A stretch of 64,000 nucleotides of DNA, from NCBI RefSeq assembly GCF_029360705.1, contig NZ_JARKMX010000014.1, forward strand, positions 310,001 through 374,000, in the 5' to 3' direction. Made by a program: the position numbers and the translations under genes. The notes below the pieces were generated by a model. It worked only from the letters and a program-made list of their open reading frames with translations. It was not told the origin of the DNA and ran no database searches. Below are positions 23,719 to 35,221 of the stretch, piece after piece. This DNA is from Paraflavitalea pollutisoli (lineage in GTDB: Bacteria; Bacteroidota; Bacteroidia; Chitinophagales; Chitinophagaceae). Position 1 is the first letter of the stretch. Each line of letters starts with the position of its first letter.

Positions 23719-24645
23719 ATGGCAGAACAAATCACCAATTATCAGCAAACCGCCCTGGGCGATGTGGCCGCCCGGCAACTCGCGATCGCCACTCGTACCG
23801 TACCGCAAATGGTCACCATCAGTCCGCGCTGGCTTACCCGCCTGCTGAACTGGGTGCCCGTAGAATCGGGGGTATACCGGCTCAACAAGGTCAAAGATGC
23901 GGGGGCCATCGTCGTCGACTGTTCCGCCCGCGATGAACGGGTATTGCCCCAAACCTTCGTCGACTACATCGACAACCCGCGGGAATACAACCTCGCGGCC
24001 GTGCAAACGATCATCGATGTACATACCCGTGTATCCGATCTGTACAGCAAGCCGTATAACCAGATCAGCGAACAGCTGCGCCTGGCCATAGAGACCATCA
24101 AAGAACGGCAGGAAAGCGAATTGATCAACAACCAGGAATATGGACTGCTGCACAGCGTGGCGGCCAGCCAGCGCATTAAAACACGTGTGGGCGCGCCCAC
24201 CCCGGATGATTTCGATGAGTTGATCGCCCTGGTGTGGAAAGAACCTGGTTTCTTCCTGTTGCACCCAATGGCCATCGCTGCCTTTGGCCGTGAGTGTACA
24301 CGCCGTGGTGTACCACCACCCACCGTCAACCTCTTTGGCTCGCCCTTTATCACCTGGCGTGGTATTCCGTTGATCCCCTCCAATAAATTACCCATCGAAA
24401 ATGGTAAGTCCAAGATCATCTTACTGCGCACCGGCGAAAGCCGCCAGGGTGTGGTAGGCCTGTTTCAGCCTGGCCTGCAGGGCGAACAATCACCCGGCTT
24501 ATCCGTGCGGTTTATGGGCATCAATGACAAGGCCATCGCCTCCTACCTCGTTTCCCTGTATTGCTCATTGGCAGTACTGGTAGACGATGCGATCGCAGTA
24601 TTGGATGACGTTGAAATCGACAATTACCATGAGTACAAATATTAA
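23719..24645 (+). CDS. Family 2A encapsulin shell protein (SrpI-like)
   Basis: The 308-residue protein matches SrpI-type family 2A encapsulins along its length: GDVAARQLA near the N-terminus, TISPRWLTRLLNWVPVESG, VDIHTRVSDLYS-like segment (DVHTRVSDLYSKPYNQIS), AIETIKERQESELIN, GVPPPTVNLFGSPFITWRG, GVVGLFQPGLQGEQ and FMGINDKAIASYLVSLYCS, ending DDVEIDNYHEYKY. Such proteins have the HK97 phage-capsid fold and assemble into small icosahedral shells that enclose a cysteine desulfurase. The ATG of the cargo gene lies inside its last codons, so the two are translated together. No cAMP-binding domain (family 2B) is present. Identification is by sequence memory of the family, with very high similarity. 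Confidence 0.95.
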   Translation: MAEQITNYQQTALGDVAARQLAIATRTVPQMVTISPRWLTRLLNWVPVESGVYRLNKVKDAGAIVVDCSARDERVLPQTFVDYIDNPREYNLAAVQTIIDVHTRVSDLYSKPYNQISEQLRLAIETIKERQESELINNQEYGLLHSVAASQRIKTRVGAPTPDDFDELIALVWKEPGFFLLHPMAIAAFGRECTRRGVPPPTVNLFGSPFITWRGIPLIPSNKLPIENGKSKIILLRTGESRQGVVGLFQPGLQGEQSPGLSVRFMGINDKAIASYLVSLYCSLAVLVDDAIAVLDDVEIDNYHEYKY

Positions 24646-26311
24646 TCAGCCGGGGCTGCCTGATATCGCCGCACTGGACAAACTTGCCAATGCATTTTTT
24701 CACCAGGATGCGCAGCTGCATCCCGCACTACCTTCCGTGGGTGGCAGTGGTCAATCGCCGGCCGGTGTGCTGCATGGCAACAACATCAATTTCGACCATC
24801 CGCAAACGGGTTTTCCCGATCAAAACCTGCAGGGAGGGGTATCGCCTTCTGTATCCGGTGATAGCCTCTTCTCGCCTGCCTTGCGACTGACCGATTATTT
24901 ACCGTTTGAAAGCGAAACGCAACAGTTATTCAACCTGCAGGCCGCATTGGCCTTGACGCCGTCATCGCCAACCGGCTTTTCACAGCTACCTACTCATCAC
25001 GGTACCGGAAGTCTGCCTCAGCTACCTCACCTGGGCCAGTCGTGGGAGGAACCACCTGCGTATTATTTCCAGGAGCATCGTTCACCAGAGTTTCACCCGT
25101 GGGGTTTCGATGTCAATACGGTGAAGAAAGATTTTCCCATTCTTGCAGAACGGGTCAACGGCAGGCCACTCGTTTGGCTCGACAATGCGGCCACCACGCA
25201 GAAGCCGAAGCAGGTCATCGACCGGATCAGCTATTTCTACCAGCACGAGAACTCCAACATACACCGGGCTGCGCACGAGTTGGCCGCACGTGCTACAGAT
25301 GCTTATGAAAGTGCCCGTAAGAAAGTGCAAACGTATATTAATGCCGGGTCGCCCAATGAGATCGTGTTCGTACGCGGTACCACAGAAGGTATCAACCTGG
25401 TGGCCAAGAGCTGGGGCGAACAATACCTGCAGGCGGGTGACGAGATCATTGTCACGCATCTCGAGCATCATGCCAACATTGTGCCCTGGCAACAACTGGC
25501 GGCTAAGAAGGGATTGAAGTTACGTGTAGTACCGGTCGATGAGGATGGGCAGGTATTGCTGGAAGAATACACGAAGTTGCTCAATAGCAAAACAAAACTG
25601 GTGGCCTTTACCCAGGTCTCCAATGCACTGGGCACCATCACGCCTGCCAAAGCGATCATCGACCTGGCCCACCAGGCAGGGGCAAAAGTATTACTCGATG
25701 GCGCGCAGTCTGTTTCGCATCTCCGTACCGATGTACAGGGACTGAATCCCGATTGGTTTGTATTCTCGGGCCATAAGGTATTTGGTCCTACCGGTATTGG
25801 TGTGGTGTATGGCAAAGAAGTGTTGCTCAATGCCACCGATCCCTGGCAGCGCGGCGGTAACATGATCAAGGATGTCACTTTTGAACATACGCAATACCAC
25901 AATGCGCCGGGGCGCTTTGAAGCGGGTACCGGCAATATTGCCGACGCCGTAGGGCTCGGTGCAGCCATCGACTATGTCAGCAAGCTGGGCATCGACAACA
26001 TCGCATTGTATGAACATTATTTGTTGGAATATGCTACCCGGTTGTTGCAGCAGGTTCCCGGGCTACGGCTCATCGGCACCGCCAAAGAAAAAGCCAGTGT
26101 GCTGTCGTTTACCCTACAGGGCTATACCAATGACCAGGTAGGCCAGGCGCTCAACCAGGAAGGGATTGCCGTAAGAACCGGTCACCACTGCGCGCAGCCC
26201 ATTCTGCGTCGGTTTGGGCTGGAGAGTACGGTGCGTCCATCCCTGGCGTTTTACAATACCTGTGCCGATGTGGATTTGTTGGTGAAGACGTTGCATCGAT
26301 TGAAAAAATAA
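24629..26311 (+). CDS. Encapsulated SufS-type cysteine desulfurase (encapsulin cargo)
   Basis: The ATG at 24629 overlaps the shell gene's end by 17 bases and gives 560 residues. Residues 1 to about 155 are a disordered, Pro/Gly/Gln-rich extension with a short amphipathic motif (LPDIAALDKLANAFF) and a second conserved-looking patch (GQSWEEPPAYYFQEH); in family 2A cargoes this extension directs loading into the shell. The catalytic domain (about 160-560) is a class V aminotransferase fold: LDNAATTQKPKQVID, LEHHANIVPWQQ, the PLP lysine in FSGHKVFGPTG, and the active-site cysteine in RTGHHCAQPIL. It would release sulfur from cysteine as a persulfide. It is about 150 residues longer than free SufS because of the loading extension. 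Confidence 0.95.
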   Translation: MSTNINQPGLPDIAALDKLANAFFHQDAQLHPALPSVGGSGQSPAGVLHGNNINFDHPQTGFPDQNLQGGVSPSVSGDSLFSPALRLTDYLPFESETQQLFNLQAALALTPSSPTGFSQLPTHHGTGSLPQLPHLGQSWEEPPAYYFQEHRSPEFHPWGFDVNTVKKDFPILAERVNGRPLVWLDNAATTQKPKQVIDRISYFYQHENSNIHRAAHELAARATDAYESARKKVQTYINAGSPNEIVFVRGTTEGINLVAKSWGEQYLQAGDEIIVTHLEHHANIVPWQQLAAKKGLKLRVVPVDEDGQVLLEEYTKLLNSKTKLVAFTQVSNALGTITPAKAIIDLAHQAGAKVLLDGAQSVSHLRTDVQGLNPDWFVFSGHKVFGPTGIGVVYGKEVLLNATDPWQRGGNMIKDVTFEHTQYHNAPGRFEAGTGNIADAVGLGAAIDYVSKLGIDNIALYEHYLLEYATRLLQQVPGLRLIGTAKEKASVLSFTLQGYTNDQVGQALNQEGIAVRTGHHCAQPILRRFGLESTVRPSLAFYNTCADVDLLVKTLHRLKK

Positions 26312-26360: not shown

Positions 26361-29300
26361 TTACATTTTTTTCAATAGCAGATGGGGGAGTATAATTTTT
26401 AGCTCGCGGTTATTCTCTTCTTCATTCCAATAAACCAGAAAATTCACTTTTGCCTCGACAACCTTAAAGCCCAGTCGAACTTGTTCACTTAGTTTTTCCT
26501 TGAATTTCTGAGAATATCTAACAACCAGATCACCTTTATCATTTTTAAGCCCTTCCTCCGCGACCTGTAGGCTATCCCCGCTTACCAACTCAGACACCTG
26601 GTGCTGCACGCGTGCAAAGTATCCCAGGTAAACATGCTTGAGTGTCAGATCGATTGCAATTTGAGCCGGCCCAGCATAGACACGATCATCTTTATAGTAG
26701 TTCGTATGCTCTCCTGAAAAACCTTGTAGGTAATTTCCGTAATAATGAATTGCCAGCATGAATTTAGCCCTGGTCGCTGCGACATAAAAAAGCCTCTTTG
26801 CTTCATCATTCCCGGGATAATAATCTTTTAGCAACAGGAACACATTGTTAAATTCCTTGCCCTTTGCTTTATGAATCGTAGAAACATAAATCACTTCGGA
26901 ATCAATCTTCACAAAATCCTCGATCCTGGATTCAAACAAGAAGGCGTTCAAGTCGCTTTTGTATTTCCGAACCGTATTAACCGATTCAAAGGCATTTATC
27001 ACTGAAAGAGCCAATTCTTTTTTATTACTCCCTCCTATCAGCTCCATCCATTTTCGCTTGGCTACCGCCCATTCTTCCTCCACGATTAGTGGATCGTCAT
27101 TGTGTTGATCGACTAAATCCGTAAAGCACCTCAATTCATACAGTACACTGAGATTGAATGCATCGTTGGTTTGAATGAGCTTGGCTGGCAAGCCCATCTG
27201 AGTTAATAATCCTACCAATAGTTGCGCTTCTTTATTGGTCGTCGTCAACACACAAGTCGATCCTGACAGCGGGGCCTGCTGAATGGCCGATGACAGCGGT
27301 ACAATAATATTTCCATGGAGGTATTCAACAATATCAATTACGCCGTCCGTAGTCTGGATGGCAAAGCAGGGGAAATCTTTTAGCCGATGCTCAATGGTTG
27401 ATACCCAACCATTACAAAAAGACACAATATTTTTTCTGCTACGATAATTGTCAACCAGTTCATGCTTAGTTGCCGTTTTATCGGTAATTAATCGCTGCAT
27501 GTTGGCAGCATCAGCTCCTCTGAACCCATAAATATTTTGATCATCATCCCCTACCAATATGACCCGCATATCTTCGTTCTCCTCCATCAAACAGCTGACC
27601 AGTTCGTATTCATCGGTATTTATATCTTGTGCCTCGTCAACGACCAGCACTGTTTTCGTGATTTTAGATGCCTCGATCTCTTTATTCCGGATCTTGCTCA
27701 CCGTAGTGGCTATAATTTGCTCGGCTGCCGGCAGGTTACCAACCCTCCCGAGTAAATCAAAACAATAAGCGTGAAAGGTCTTTATTTCAATATAATGCGC
27801 AGCATTAGCGATCAACTCGATTAATCGTTTTTTGAATTCAGTAGCTGCAGCGCGGGAAAAAGTCAACATCAGTAACTGCTCATGTTTAACATCTTCCGTT
27901 AGCAGAAGAGATGCCAATTTATGCACCAACACCCTGGTTTTGCCGCTTCCGGGGCCGGCAGCCACAACAATATGCTGACTGGCTGCATCATTGATAATTT
28001 TCAGTTGCGCAGGAGAAAGATCACCAAACAACCTCATAAACTTTTCCGGGGTCAGGGTTCGCCTAATCTCGCTTTGTCTGCTTCCCGGAAAATATTTCGA
28101 CAGAAAAGAAGAATAGTTTAAGCCAAAATAATCGTCTACAAATTGCAAAGCTTCTTTGTAATTCGCGATCATCTTTTTTGCGTATTCCCCAACGATGTGA
28201 ATTTGCTGCACCTTTTGTTCGTAATACAGTTTTAAGCGTTCATAATCGCTTTCCGTATATTGCTTTCGATTGTTCGTTTCGAGACGGTCGATCGTCAGTT
28301 TATTGTAGGCAACCAGGAAGCCTCCTTCAATTTTAAGGGCCTCGATCCTGGACAGGTAAAAGAGCGTATCCTCGATATCATCTATGGTGGCCTTCAACGA
28401 AAACATACCCTGACTCGCCTCGATCATTTCCTTTAACTCCTGGATGGAGAACTCAATCAATACCTCTTCCTGCTTTTCGTCGGGCCTGGTTATTTCGTTG
28501 GATTGCTTAAATAAGTATTCGACGATCAATCTCGACAACAGGTGACGTTTTTCCTGCTTCTCCTTAAATAAGCTCTTTTCGATCAATAAGGTTATTTTGA
28601 CATAATTTTTTGAGGAGGCCTGCTGCTGCCGCTTAATCCAGTTCTTAATCGCCCAGAAATTAAGGATCGTCTTCAGGTTATTCAGGGAACTATCCACCGC
28701 ACCAGCTGCAAGTAGAGATTCATTGATCTCTTTCAAGTGATAGACGTCTTCTTCTTTCAGTATGGCCAGCAACTCCTCTTCTTGCTTCTTTATGGATTCT
28801 ACTATTGATAAGGATTTGTTGACTGATTCCGTTCTTTTGATAAAAGCCGTCAGGTCTTGCGTTTTGTCAAGTATTTTCACCTCCCGCATCAATTCAATGA
28901 CCCTGATCACCTCCTCTTTCACAATCCCCAACTGGTCGGAAATATAGTCAACCCTCGATTCGGCCATTTCTTCGGTCGACAATCGCTTGCTTTTACTGGA
29001 GAATAGCTTTTTAATAATGCGAACGGCCTGTACTTTCTGATGGTCGGAAAACTTTTCTGAGCCGTTGATACGATCAATGGCTTCTTGTGCATTCTTACTT
29101 AAGATACTGCTGGCAAAAACACGTGGCATATTTTGCCCCCGCTTTAGGTATCCGGCATCCTCCAGGGCAGCGATGGCAGTTGTCACCCTCGTTTCAATCT
29201 CATTGATACTATCATCCCATCCTGCTTTTCGGGCTATTTCAAGCGCCGAGTTCGACACCTTTGTTCTCGTTCTGGTCAACTCCTTTATGGCCCTCCAGAT

Positions 29301-31160
29301 TTGATTGATCTCCTTACTGCTTATCTTAGTTTGGTTCAGGAGAATGAAGTGCTTATTCAGGTCTTCTTCGTCAAACAGGATATGACAATTTGCCTTCATC
29401 TTTTCATCACGGCCCGCCCTTCCTGCTTCCTGCATATAATTCTCCAATGAGTCCGAAATATCGTAATGTACCACAGCACCTACATCACTTTTGTCTACCC
29501 CCATTCCAAAGGCAGATGTTGCGACGATAATATCGCATTCTCCAGCCATAAAAGCCTTTTGATTTTGCGATTTCTCATCTTTATTCATCTTACCATGAAA
29601 GGGCCGCGCATCAAAACCGTCCTCAGCCAATCGTTGCGAAAGCTTGTTGGCTCTTTTTGTCCGGGAAACATATACAATGGATGCGTTGGTCTGACTTTCG
29701 AGGATACCTCGCAACTGGTTGTATTTATCCTCTTCAGTGGCGTTGGGATGGACAGCATAGGCTAAATTGGTTCTGGACGCATTGGCCCTAAACAACAGTA
29801 ACCTGAGTTGCAGCTTCTCCTGGAAATAGGTAAGAATATCTTCAATCACTTTTTGCTTGGCAGTGGCTGTAAAACAGGAAACGGGAATAGGATACTCCAG
29901 GTTTTTCTTTTCTTGCAGGGTCTTGATAAAATCTCCAATGTACAAATAGTCTACCCTGAAGTCCTGCCCCCAGGACGAAAAACAATGCGCCTCATCGATA
30001 ACAAACCGGGCAATTTTTCGCTTTAACAACAATCGTTCAATGGTAATAGACCTGAGTGATTCCGGCGATATGTACAAAAGACTGGCAAGCCCATTTTCAA
30101 CCCTTTCAATCGCCTTACTGCGCTCAATGGGATCGAGCAAGCCGTTTATGGTCACAGCAGCTGTAATGCCTTTTTTCTCGAGGTTGTCCACCTGATCCTT
30201 CATCAACGATTGCAAGGGAGAAATGACAACGGTCAACGCTCTCGCATTCTCTCCGCTCATTAAGGCGGGAATTTGAAAGGTAATGGACTTTCCACCGCCG
30301 GTAGGGAATATGGCCAATAAGGACTTTCCATGAATAGCTGCGCCAACCGCATCTGCTTGCAAGGGTTGATCGCCATAGCTTCGAAACCCATCAAACCCAA
30401 AATGCCTTTTCAGGCTGAGCAAAGGATCCAGGGCCAATTTGCAATAGCTACAACCGGTTACGCAGGGGGAATTCCCCAACAAAAAAAGATACCTTTCTAC
30501 TGCCGGATAGTTTCGCAATACCCAGGGGGGAGAAATGGAAAATCGATCTTCACAGTTCAACAGCGTTAAGGCATATGCCAGCGAAACCGGGTCGCTGGCC
30601 ATTAACGCGTCAACATCACATTGACCACAAATTTTGTTGTAAAAATATTCCCTGATGAAGCTCCCCACATCATCCGGTACCTTAGGTGCATACTGAAGGC
30701 ATTTAAAGAAGTTTCGGAAGTTTTTATCCTCCGCTAAAAGTGCGTATAGAATAGTTTTAAAAACATCGTCCAACTGGCCAAACGCGGCTATTTCATCGAA
30801 AAACAGGTCTCTTGCCTTAGCAGAATCGTTTACCGGATTGTTATTATTTTCCGGATCGAGTTTATCATCTTTAAGTAAATGGTGGTAGGGGCTTTTAGGA
30901 AACAGTAATGGAGAAAGCGGCAAGGTGTCGATGGTCCTGTCTAGGCCCCAGCCAGGGTCACCTAATTGTTTTTGTAAATAGACCAGGTCATGAGCGATGA
31001 TATTGTGTCCACAGAGAAAATCGGCAGGCTGCGTAAAGGCGACGAACTCATTGAGCATATTTCTGTGAAATACTGCCCCACTTGATAGTACGCACCCAAT
31101 GTCAAGTATTTGCTCACTTTTCGGGCTAACCTCAATATCAAAAAAAGCAGTTAGATTCAT
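26361..31160 (-). CDS. Exonuclease-RecQ-UvrD fusion helicase/nuclease, 1599 residues
   Basis: An N-terminal DEDD exonuclease domain (about 1-125) has D8-I-E10, H52-N53...D58 and D112 in NNPVNDS. A linker carries C178-GQ-C181 and C233-VTG-C237-SY-C240. A RecQ helicase follows (about 250-700): Q-motif FGFDGFR, Walker A PTGGGKS (286-292), DEAH in VIDEAHCFSSWG, TATAK and QEAGRAGRDEK, then winged-helix-like and helical regions. The last 530 residues are a UvrD/PcrA helicase with AGPGSGKTR, VVDEAQD, GDDDQNIYGFRGA, STIHKAKGKEF and YVAATRAK. Both helicases keep all key motifs, so both should be active. It is a single gene, A+T-rich relative to its neighbours. A role in DNA repair or in defence against foreign DNA is possible but not shown. 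The promoter is unclear; TTTG-N20-TACATTAG about 70-100 bases upstream is weak. Confidence 0.9.
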   Translation of the reverse strand: MNLTAFFDIEVSPKSEQILDIGCVLSSGAVFHRNMLNEFVAFTQPADFLCGHNIIAHDLVYLQKQLGDPGWGLDRTIDTLPLSPLLFPKSPYHHLLKDDKLDPENNNNPVNDSAKARDLFFDEIAAFGQLDDVFKTILYALLAEDKNFRNFFKCLQYAPKVPDDVGSFIREYFYNKICGQCDVDALMASDPVSLAYALTLLNCEDRFSISPPWVLRNYPAVERYLFLLGNSPCVTGCSYCKLALDPLLSLKRHFGFDGFRSYGDQPLQADAVGAAIHGKSLLAIFPTGGGKSITFQIPALMSGENARALTVVISPLQSLMKDQVDNLEKKGITAAVTINGLLDPIERSKAIERVENGLASLLYISPESLRSITIERLLLKRKIARFVIDEAHCFSSWGQDFRVDYLYIGDFIKTLQEKKNLEYPIPVSCFTATAKQKVIEDILTYFQEKLQLRLLLFRANASRTNLAYAVHPNATEEDKYNQLRGILESQTNASIVYVSRTKRANKLSQRLAEDGFDARPFHGKMNKDEKSQNQKAFMAGECDIIVATSAFGMGVDKSDVGAVVHYDISDSLENYMQEAGRAGRDEKMKANCHILFDEEDLNKHFILLNQTKISSKEINQIWRAIKELTRTRTKVSNSALEIARKAGWDDSINEIETRVTTAIAALEDAGYLKRGQNMPRVFASSILSKNAQEAIDRINGSEKFSDHQKVQAVRIIKKLFSSKSKRLSTEEMAESRVDYISDQLGIVKEEVIRVIELMREVKILDKTQDLTAFIKRTESVNKSLSIVESIKKQEEELLAILKEEDVYHLKEINESLLAAGAVDSSLNNLKTILNFWAIKNWIKRQQQASSKNYVKITLLIEKSLFKEKQEKRHLLSRLIVEYLFKQSNEITRPDEKQEEVLIEFSIQELKEMIEASQGMFSLKATIDDIEDTLFYLSRIEALKIEGGFLVAYNKLTIDRLETNNRKQYTESDYERLKLYYEQKVQQIHIVGEYAKKMIANYKEALQFVDDYFGLNYSSFLSKYFPGSRQSEIRRTLTPEKFMRLFGDLSPAQLKIINDAASQHIVVAAGPGSGKTRVLVHKLASLLLTEDVKHEQLLMLTFSRAAATEFKKRLIELIANAAHYIEIKTFHAYCFDLLGRVGNLPAAEQIIATTVSKIRNKEIEASKITKTVLVVDEAQDINTDEYELVSCLMEENEDMRVILVGDDDQNIYGFRGADAANMQRLITDKTATKHELVDNYRSRKNIVSFCNGWVSTIEHRLKDFPCFAIQTTDGVIDIVEYLHGNIIVPLSSAIQQAPLSGSTCVLTTTNKEAQLLVGLLTQMGLPAKLIQTNDAFNLSVLYELRCFTDLVDQHNDDPLIVEEEWAVAKRKWMELIGGSNKKELALSVINAFESVNTVRKYKSDLNAFLFESRIEDFVKIDSEVIYVSTIHKAKGKEFNNVFLLLKDYYPGNDEAKRLFYVAATRAKFMLAIHYYGNYLQGFSGEHTNYYKDDRVYAGPAQIAIDLTLKHVYLGYFARVQHQVSELVSGDSLQVAEEGLKNDKGDLVVRYSQKFKEKLSEQVRLGFKVVEAKVNFLVYWNEEENNRELKIILPHLLLKKM

Positions 31161-31388: not shown

Positions 31389-31606
31389 TCACTTACTCCT
31401 ACTTGTACTTGTTTTCTTGCTTCCACTCCCCTTATTACTCCTCCCCCACCAGATATAAAACCCGGTGATGGGCGGTCCGGCGCAGATAAAACTCACCAGA
31501 AACATCAGGATACGGCCGGGCATACCGGCAATGGAGCCCGCATGGATATCGTAATTCATGCTGCGCAGCTTCACGCCTTTCATTCGATCCTTGTAATAAG
31601 TGGTTG
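31389..31606 (-). pseudogene. C-terminal remnant of a PepSY-TM protein
   Basis: The frame ends with about 70 residues that match the C-terminus of PepSY-TM proteins: LRSMNYDIHAGSIAGMPGRI followed by a membrane helix (LMFLVSFICAGPPITGFYIW) and a basic tail WWGRSNKGSGSKK. The frame is open to 31703 but upstream residues do not look like the family, and the remaining 400 or so residues are missing. The hydrophobic frame LFVWAGGLFVLAS (about 31678-31716) may be further debris. It is therefore a truncated gene, not a small functional one. A full-length PepSY-TM gene is present at 4786-6390, but this remnant is not a copy of its end. Confidence 0.7.
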
Positions 31607-31802
31607 ACAAGTTATTACCCGTATGTTGAAGGAGACGAAAACGGGAAAATTCAAACAGGCTAACATTTGTTAAGAAGCCAGCACAAACAGCCCTCCGGCC
31701 CACACAAACAGTTGTTGATGTAAAATCGGGGGCAGCCGATCCAGCCGAAAACCTACAGGCCCAACATTAGCTTATTTTTATCGTATCATAACCATTCCAG
31801 CC

Positions 31803-34507: not shown

Positions 34508-35221
34508 ATGGAAACCATTATCAGTACAATCAATAACGCCAACTGGGAGGCTGCCACCCAAGACCTGCACCAGCAGGGATATGCCCTGTTGCCCGGCCTG
34601 CTCGATGCGGCCGATTCCCAACAATTGATCGATCAATACCAGCAGCCCGCCTTGTTCCGTAAAACCATTGCTATGGAACGCTACCGGTTTGGCCTTGGCG
34701 AATACAAATACTACCAATACCCCCTACCCGATCTGCTGCAACAAATACGGCAATCGATCTATCCGCACCTGGCTCCTATCGCCAATGCCTGGATGAAGGC
34801 GCTAACGATCGACCAGCAATATCCAGCCACGCTGGAAGCATTGCACGTTGCCTGCCGGCAACATCAACAGATCCACCCCACCGTATTGATACTGCAATAT
34901 GGCCCGGGTGGCCACAACACGCTGCACCAGGATCTATACGGCGATGTCTTCTTTCCTATCCAACTGGTGATGTTCCTGAATGAAGCCGGCAAGGACTATA
35001 CCGGGGGTGAATTTGTATTGACCGAACAGATCCCGCGTGCCCAATCCAAAGCCATCGTACTCACCCCCAAGCGAGGCGACTTCCTCCTGTTTACCACCAA
35101 TTTTCGGCCGGTCAGGGGCAGCAAAGGGTATTATCGGGTCAATATGAAACATGGCGTCAGTGCCGTACACAGCGGTCGCCGGTATACCCTGGGCATTATC
35201 TTCCATGACGCACAAAGCTGA
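34508..35221 (+). CDS. 2OG-Fe(II) oxygenase superfamily protein
   Basis: The 237-residue protein has the double-stranded beta-helix metal-binding set HQD (in TLHQDLYGD) and a distal His in MKHGVSAVHSGRRYTLGII, where the Arg would hold 2-oxoglutarate. NEAGKDYTGGEFVLTE and PKRGDFLLFTT are typical of prolyl-hydroxylase-like members. It is cytoplasmic by lack of a signal. A TAGTTTCG element (34494-34501) ends only six bases before the ATG, so the message may be almost leaderless. Substrate unknown. Confidence 0.85.
   Translation: METIISTINNANWEAATQDLHQQGYALLPGLLDAADSQQLIDQYQQPALFRKTIAMERYRFGLGEYKYYQYPLPDLLQQIRQSIYPHLAPIANAWMKALTIDQQYPATLEALHVACRQHQQIHPTVLILQYGPGGHNTLHQDLYGDVFFPIQLVMFLNEAGKDYTGGEFVLTEQIPRAQSKAIVLTPKRGDFLLFTTNFRPVRGSKGYYRVNMKHGVSAVHSGRRYTLGIIFHDAQS

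Follow-up and report, generated by a model that had tools for sequence, protein, structure and literature searches.

A patchily distributed protein combining a predicted DEDD exonuclease domain with RecQ- and UvrD-type helicase modules in Paraflavitalea pollutisoli

Nucleases and helicases are combined in several ways by the systems that most resemble the locus described here. In RecBCD and AddAB, ATP-driven unwinding is coupled to degradation through several subunits that include PD-(D/E)XK nucleases, and the Gabija helicase GajB pairs with the GajA nuclease. The eukaryotic protein WRN consists of a DEDDy exonuclease, in which a tyrosine lies four residues before the last aspartate, followed by a RecQ helicase with RQC and HRDC domains and no known UvrD module, and is an example of a helicase-linked DEDD domain with a role in repair. 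Canonical RecQ enzymes carry zinc-binding cysteines after the helicase core, and the motors of the RecQ and UvrD families both run 3'-5'. In DinG of Staphylococcus aureus, an N-terminal DnaQ-fold DEDD exonuclease precedes a helical bundle and a helicase within the same chain, which has a single motor and no known RecQ, winged-helix or UvrD parts. According to PMC12345164, this SF2 motor has 5'-3' polarity, the exonuclease is of the DEDDh type, with a histidine (H149) five residues before the last aspartate (D154), alanine at that histidine nearly abolishes activity, and deleting DinG increases sensitivity to DNA crosslinking agents. The closest architectures to that of the present protein are exonuclease-bearing DinG, by fold, and WRN, by the sequence of its RecQ part.

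The gene lies on the minus strand at 26361-31160 of the window, by which we mean the whole 64,000-nucleotide stretch of P. pollutisoli DNA that was analysed, and consists of one intact 1599-codon frame of 4800 bases by ORF calling (Table 1). It had been predicted to carry three modules in a single 1599-residue chain, which proved correct: the RecQ and UvrD modules are plain from the sequence, and the exonuclease is recognised by its predicted fold. The helicase motifs described in the same prediction as retained are kept as well, the Walker A, DEAH and DEAQD residues being present in 73 or 74 of 74 aligned proteins, a set from which six copies or duplicates, and ORFs shorter than 1400 amino acids or not spanning query residues 60-1400, had been removed (the length and span filter was passed by 78 of 102 ORFs).

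No description of an exonuclease-RecQ-UvrD architecture was found in a literature consisting mostly of non-subscription papers, in keeping with the earlier statement of knowing no experimentally described system with exactly this composition; one may exist among subscription papers. The passages of PMC5512222 on RecQ and UvrD do not concern this protein. A known PADLOC system under another name was considered and rejected, as among the 25 families listed of 67 the matches cover single modules. The models of DpdF (Dpd system) and PsyrT share the RecQ-type core (E 3.3e-99 and 3.9e-79, respectively), yet their matches are confined to residues 249-729 and 266-630. Similarly, GajB and PcrA/UvrD share the UvrD-type SF1 core (GajB structures, E 7e-17 to 1.1e-16), whereas unlike in GajB the core is here fused to other modules.

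Table 1. Positions of the gene and its parts in the window, with the evidence on which each assignment rests.
Feature	Residues	Window coordinates	Strand	Evidence
Whole gene: DEDD exonuclease, four-cysteine region, RecQ, likely winged helices, UvrD	1599 aa	26361..31160	-	ORF, Pfam, NCBIfam
DnaQ-fold DEDD exonuclease domain (predicted)	about 1-130	30771..31160	-	AlphaFold2 pLDDT 88.3; Foldseek and VIA match to S. aureus DinG
Exonuclease motif III (N107, N108 ... D112)	107-112	30825..30842	-	alignment of 74 proteins
Helical region with C178, C233, C237, C240	131-245	30426..30770	-	conservation; predicted helical
RecQ-family SF2 helicase core	250-605	29346..30413	-	TIGR00614; PF00270, PF00271; BLM, RECQ5, WRN in PDB
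RecQ Walker A	286-293	30282..30305	-	G288, K291 in 74/74; S292 in 73/74
RecQ DEAH box	389-392	29985..29996	-	D389, E390, H392 in 74/74
Middle region, three or four likely winged-helix units	606-1040	28041..29345	-	AlphaFold2 pLDDT 71.0; weak Foldseek matches
UvrD-like SF1 helicase, shortened	1045-1475	26736..28028	-	PF00580, PF13361; alignment to E. coli UvrD 3lfu
UvrD Walker A	1068-1075	27936..27959	-	K1074, T1075 in 74/74
UvrD DEAQD box	1175-1179	27624..27638	-	D1175, E1176, Q1178, D1179 in 74/74
C-terminal 124 residues, weakly conserved		26364..26735	-	block conservation 0.51-0.62 from residue 1481 on

The N-terminal domain is, by its predicted fold and four carboxylates, a DnaQ-fold DEDD exonuclease domain, with an activity that is itself a prediction. 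The best structural match of its model was S. aureus DinG (Foldseek, VIA), and the carboxylates D8, E10, D58 and D112 are invariant in all 74 proteins, distant proteobacterial copies included. A profile of the domain searched against the PDB gave E-values of 0.012 to 0.018 for proteins named exodeoxyribonuclease III, and 0.02 for a PolC-type exonuclease. Assignment through Pfam failed, its matches staying below the cut-offs: DNA_pol_B_exo1 matched 12 of the 47 members at a best E of 0.00057, and RNase_T a single one (E 0.16). Motif III corresponds to neither of the usual DEDD types. Where DinG has H149 (PMC12345164), five residues before the last aspartate, asparagine (N107) stands in 73 of the 74 proteins; the position of the DEDDy tyrosine is likewise an asparagine (N108) in 70, with aspartate in the remaining four. 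Hence exonuclease activity is not a given, and the nuclease may be weak or dead, as the usual histidine and tyrosine are absent, although another general base is possible, since H93 and K97, in the loop preceding motif III, are both invariant and the carboxylates are kept.

Between this domain and the RecQ core, a mainly helical region contains four cysteines (C178, C233, C237 and C240), each conserved in 73 of the 74 proteins, which may form a zinc or iron-sulfur site. The core that follows scored 275.3 bits against the RecQ family model TIGR00614 (cut-off 219.8), and 309.6 bits against the RecQ equivalog TIGR01389, below its cut-off of 640.2. The PDB sequences nearest to it are BLM, RECQ1, RECQ5, bacterial RecQ and WRN, the last at E 1.3e-34 (8pfl). 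The canonical RecQ zinc cysteines are absent after the core, C592 being the sole cysteine conserved in at least 60% of proteins within residues 493-820. The model of the middle region (about residues 605-1046) is of moderate quality, with a pLDDT of 71.0, and consists of repeated helix-helix-helix-hairpin units. Foldseek returned nothing below 0.001, with MarR-type and a few PadR-type winged helices recurring among the weak matches, and weak helix-turn-helix Pfam matches also recur, HTH_Crp_2 matching 13 of the 45 members, at best with E 0.008. These roughly 440 residues therefore likely comprise three or four winged helices, as judged from the predicted model; a profile search of the region against the PDB was uninformative, the single match being a crystallin (E 0.78).

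The UvrD module belongs to the UvrD/Rep superfamily (PF00580, 121.8 bits against a cut-off of 23), and falls far below the cut-off of the UvrD equivalog TIGR01075 (122.4 against 1144.45 bits). Compared with E. coli UvrD (3lfu), and as read from the alignment, it is shorter by roughly 80 residues between the TFH motif and the DEAQD box, and by roughly 85 between the NYRS and HKAKG motifs, which suggests that the 1B and 2B subdomains are reduced. The likeness to RecBCD and AddAB that had originally been proposed holds in that a helicase is joined to a nuclease domain, and the protein may work like these machines, by coupling ATP-driven unwinding to degradation. However, no PD-(D/E)XK or RecB-type nuclease was matched in Pfam at E 0.1 (the C-terminal 124 residues are without assignment or model), both motors belong to 3'-5' families, and DinG and WRN are closer.

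The gene is accessory rather than core, and is patchily distributed. Full-length relatives were found in at least seven of 36 genomes of the family, one of them with an internal stop, and in none of the 23 genomes that represent the order's other families, part of the candidates having been scored; within the genus, where all candidates were scored, the gene is present in one of five genomes. An N-terminal profile detected it in at least 26 of 395 genomes of the class Bacteroidia, and this count and those for the family and order are lower bounds, as six and nine first-look candidates per genome, respectively, were scored. The distribution thus rules out a core repair gene, including the universally conserved one that the original prediction had raised as its own counter-case. 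All seven family genomes with the gene also show RecQ-length RecQ matches elsewhere. A scan of named genomes returned at least 596 stretches, at least 570 of them encoding a relative; the best 80, ranked by N-terminal similarity, come mostly from Bacteroidota, with Clostridia, a Cloacimonadota and a Chlorobiaceae bin. At six of these 80 loci (L014, L024, L033, L042, L060 and L084) a stop or a change of frame within the contig apparently disrupts the gene, as might be anticipated either of an accessory gene that can be dispensed with or of errors in draft assemblies.

The relationships between these proteins follow taxonomy poorly, though some taxonomic clustering remains. On the tree of 74 proteins, order labels need 29 changes, with 23 rows left out (minimum 8; mean of shuffled labels 33.2; as low in 4 of 200 shuffles), and class labels need 27 (minimum 7; shuffled 34.6; as low in none of 200), numbers that the labels themselves, contaminated bins and paralogues also raise. 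We read these changes as probable signs of frequent transfer. The gene is also A+T-rich, as had been noted at the outset, its GC fraction of 0.436 being the lowest of the 44 called window ORFs, the next lowest being 0.493.

Some copies are carried by mobile DNA. The exonuclease part was found in 21 of 72,556 plasmid records, ranging from Bacteroides and Phocaeicola to Rhizobium, Cereibacter and Aliarcobacter, and eight loci lie in viral contigs; the N-terminal part had no match in 50,697 phage records. Plasmid annotations name the gene only as "RecQ family ATP-dependent DNA helicase" or "ATP-dependent DNA helicase RecQ", and in several records none is annotated. Among the twelve annotated plasmid regions that were read, the Allochromatium copy has a type I restriction system one gene away, and in the Thiothrix record about 4 kb, including a WYL regulator, separates the gene from a type I-D CRISPR locus. 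One plasmid copy adjoins parA/parB and replication genes, and those of Bacteroides, Aliarcobacter, Sulfitobacter, Rhizobium, Cereibacter, Microvirga and Croceicoccus are situated among plasmid, transposase, toxin-antitoxin or ordinary genes.

In the window itself, the gene converges on that of a cysteine desulfurase, which in turn lies 3' of a type 2A encapsulin shell gene. This pair (23719-26311, plus strand), comprising the shell gene (PF19307, SrpI-like, E 4.7e-106) and the desulfurase with its long N-terminal extension, has the known cargo arrangement, with the desulfurase as cargo. It is conserved in two genomes of the same genus (G003 and G001), which provide no clean empty site, since the genes following the pair differ. 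Insertion-marking repeats were also sought and not found at the left edge, and at the right edge one 14-nt pair 21 bases apart was present, each edge being searched singly. No known defence system adjoins this copy among the ten neighbours tested: PADLOC matched only the cysteine desulfurase, through the DndA/SspA models of its own enzyme family, and a generic 2OG oxygenase. There was no GajA among the ten, both flanking genes of more than 110 amino acids included, as would be needed for Gabija, and no other Dpd gene beside a helicase that scored 228.2 bits against the NCBIfam DpdF cut-off of 550. A PF09859 2OG-Fe(II) oxygenase, which according to Pfam acts on damaged DNA, is encoded 3.3 kb from the gene (34508-35221, plus strand). 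On the minus strand at 31389-31703 is a short ORF that we take to resemble the C-terminal end of a PepSY-type membrane protein; it may be the leftover of a rearranged flank, because a 45-residue stretch 49 percent identical to it lies about 13 kb after the desulfurase in G003 (L099).

Across homologues, defence genes are more frequent in the adjacent positions than in a control. Of the 80 loci, 78 have flanking ORFs, and taking the closest one on either side within 1500 bases yielded 139 proteins, identified by a simple longest-ORF rule such that some are spurious (the upstream "neighbour" at L014 is the gene's own first part). As a control, 139 of 151 proteins encoded around recA were used, from 40 of these genomes; they are thus not random, and three RecA proteins are among them. 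Among the homologues' neighbours, Pfam (E 1e-8) identified HNH_2 in six, ResIII in four, Fic in four, and McrBC, HSDR_N and the Schlafen group 3 helicase in two each; HNH_2, ResIII and Fic are all outside the first 25 Pfam families of the control, and hence have at most two members each there. PADLOC (E 1e-20) matched 68 families, of which 25 were listed, one protein being able to match several models such that family counts are not protein counts; these included HNH (5), SoFic (4), REase_I (2) and mREase_IV (2), with single matches to AbiEii, Hhe, PD-T4-1 and PsyrA among others. The control matched 36 families, none with more than two members: ShosA and PsyrA had two each, the former being DprA-like (Pfam finds DNA_processg_A in two), and single members included reverse-transcriptase models (probably one protein), mad3, MzaA, IetA, PDC-S05, Cas1_IIIb and a homing endonuclease. 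A class-level set comprised 146 proteins encoded no more than 4.5 kb from the gene, in 20 genomes (the 26 class genomes less G000, G008, G033, G283, G282 and G420). It matched 101 PADLOC families, and 24 of the 25 listed were single-member, including type I, III and IV restriction, reverse-transcriptase and Pycsar cyclase models, the last of which may represent an ordinary cyclase. Reading the starts of the sequences placed a defence or toxin-antitoxin gene within 4.5 kb at nine of these 20 loci, and ordinary genes at the other 11. A defence-gene context is seen beside part of the homologues, relative to the control, but not in the window.

No constant operon partner emerged among the recurrent neighbour clusters, and none of the 22 listed is, by reading, an integrase or relaxase family. 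One association is with HNH genes of several subtypes, a member of an HNH cluster lying within 10 kb at nine of 78 loci. Across 46 genomes, seven of 18 HNH_2 domains are within 5 kb of the gene, in seven genomes, against 0.061 expected (nominal P 6e-13), compared with one within 5 kb of recA, against 0.045 expected (nominal P 0.044). At three loci (L036, L057 and L079) the stop codon of the HNH gene overlaps the start of the helicase-exonuclease gene as ATGA, and a further start-stop overlap (L157) is evident from coordinates. At another locus (L028, 9129-10004) it is the stop of a putative methyltransferase, identified by reading, that overlaps the gene start, with an HNH gene 0.9 kb downstream on the opposite strand. 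As HNH_2 had been chosen after the first neighbours were seen, a second sample was needed, and 29 genomes were used, none of them among the 46, although five (G005, G006, G027, G033 and G034) had loci among the best 80. These contained 14 HNH_2 domains in 11 genomes, one of which is beside the gene (G324, overlapping by coordinates), making the linkage far weaker (1 of 29 genomes, compared with 7 of 46). Hence the HNH enzyme is an optional partner in a minority, rather than a defining part. A linkage to type I methylases (N6_Mtase) was not significant within 10 kb (2 against 0.55 expected, P 0.11), with four within 20 kb against 0.99 expected (P 0.019).

The best explanation, to which we give a probability of about 0.45, is that this helicase-exonuclease is accessory, has spread horizontally and acts on foreign DNA, either alone or after a nicking partner, with cell protection as its most likely role. 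Distribution, transfer and neighbours fit accessory defence better than a core repair enzyme, no single line being decisive. Under such a mechanism, the winged helices and the two motors would load onto single-stranded or branched DNA, such as phage or plasmid replication intermediates, or enter at a nick made by a separate nuclease, which in some genomes could be the HNH enzyme encoded just upstream, should the two cooperate. RecQ and UvrD, both presumably pulling 3'-5', would then allow one large chain to strip and unwind the duplex, and the N-terminal DEDD domain, if active, would trim the 3' end exposed by the motors, leaving an invader lost or uncopyable. Both the preference for foreign DNA and the anti-phage function in this scheme are putative. 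A bolder version, which we consider doubtful, is that the family constitutes a widespread, undescribed single-protein immune helicase-nuclease, with two 3'-5' motors of different superfamilies, a catalytically new, Asn-type DEDD exonuclease with a relocated base such as H93, a four-cysteine metal site and winged helices, one branch being fed by the nicks of a co-translated HNH endonuclease. If true, the at least 570 relative-encoding stretches would represent a separate immune or DNA-processing enzyme. Its Asn-type DEDD site would then test directly which general base this nuclease superfamily requires, and the protein would be a one-chain model for the coupling of SF1 and SF2 motors.

It is possible, if less probable, that the protein instead processes the cell's own DNA, as an accessory repair or fork-processing enzyme. 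It would then unwind and trim intermediates that are damaged or stalled, corresponding in bacteria to WRN or exonuclease-DinG, and its patchiness would reflect a niche-dependent benefit. The closest architectures, WRN by sequence and S. aureus DinG by fold, are those of repair enzymes, loss of DinG sensitising cells to crosslinking agents (PMC12345164), and the 11 of 20 class-level loci read as lying among ordinary-looking genes, like the window copy, are also compatible with such a role. It is because these two proteins exemplify DEDD-helicase fusions serving repair that we keep this explanation in contention, despite the disagreement between tree and taxonomy, the plasmid-borne copies, the excess of restriction, McrBC, Fic and HNH genes next door relative to the control, and the RecQ-length RecQ matches elsewhere in the seven family genomes. 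An unlikely alternative concerns the nuclease rather than the substrate: a degenerate domain might bind 3' ends without cutting, with the double 3'-5' motor stripping proteins, or unwinding for a separate nuclease such as an HNH neighbour. The asparagines at both the DEDDh and DEDDy positions (73 and 70 of 74), the near loss of activity on alanine substitution of the equivalent DinG histidine (PMC12345164) and the HNH linkage speak for such a domain, yet the retention of all four metal-binding carboxylates even in distant proteobacterial copies, and the invariance of H93 and K97, which makes another general base possible, speak against it. Least probable, in our view, is a gene serving the replication, transfer or establishment of mobile elements rather than their hosts. 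The plasmid copy beside parA/parB and replication genes, the other plasmid copies and the eight viral-contig loci point in that direction, but so low a frequency among plasmid records, the complete absence from the phage records searched, and the lack of an integrase or relaxase family in the 22 recurrent clusters listed all weigh against it.

More distant relatives occur on cyanobacterial plasmids. The three copies there gave no match to the exonuclease query, and are outside the 74-protein set; that of Pseudanabaena follows a WYL gene, and another helicase comes after that of Nostoc. On a Scytonema plasmid, a row of genes (L144, 309-8275) encoding helicase-like, unknown, phospholipase D and again unknown proteins precedes the distant relative, separated from it by one pentapeptide-repeat gene, and could be an unassigned defence cluster. 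Finally, a hypothetical protein on a 39.9-kb plasmid of Sulfurospirillum diekertiae (NZ_CP059996.1, 10470-11006) matches residues 5-188 of the exonuclease part, and is possibly an exonuclease without helicases.
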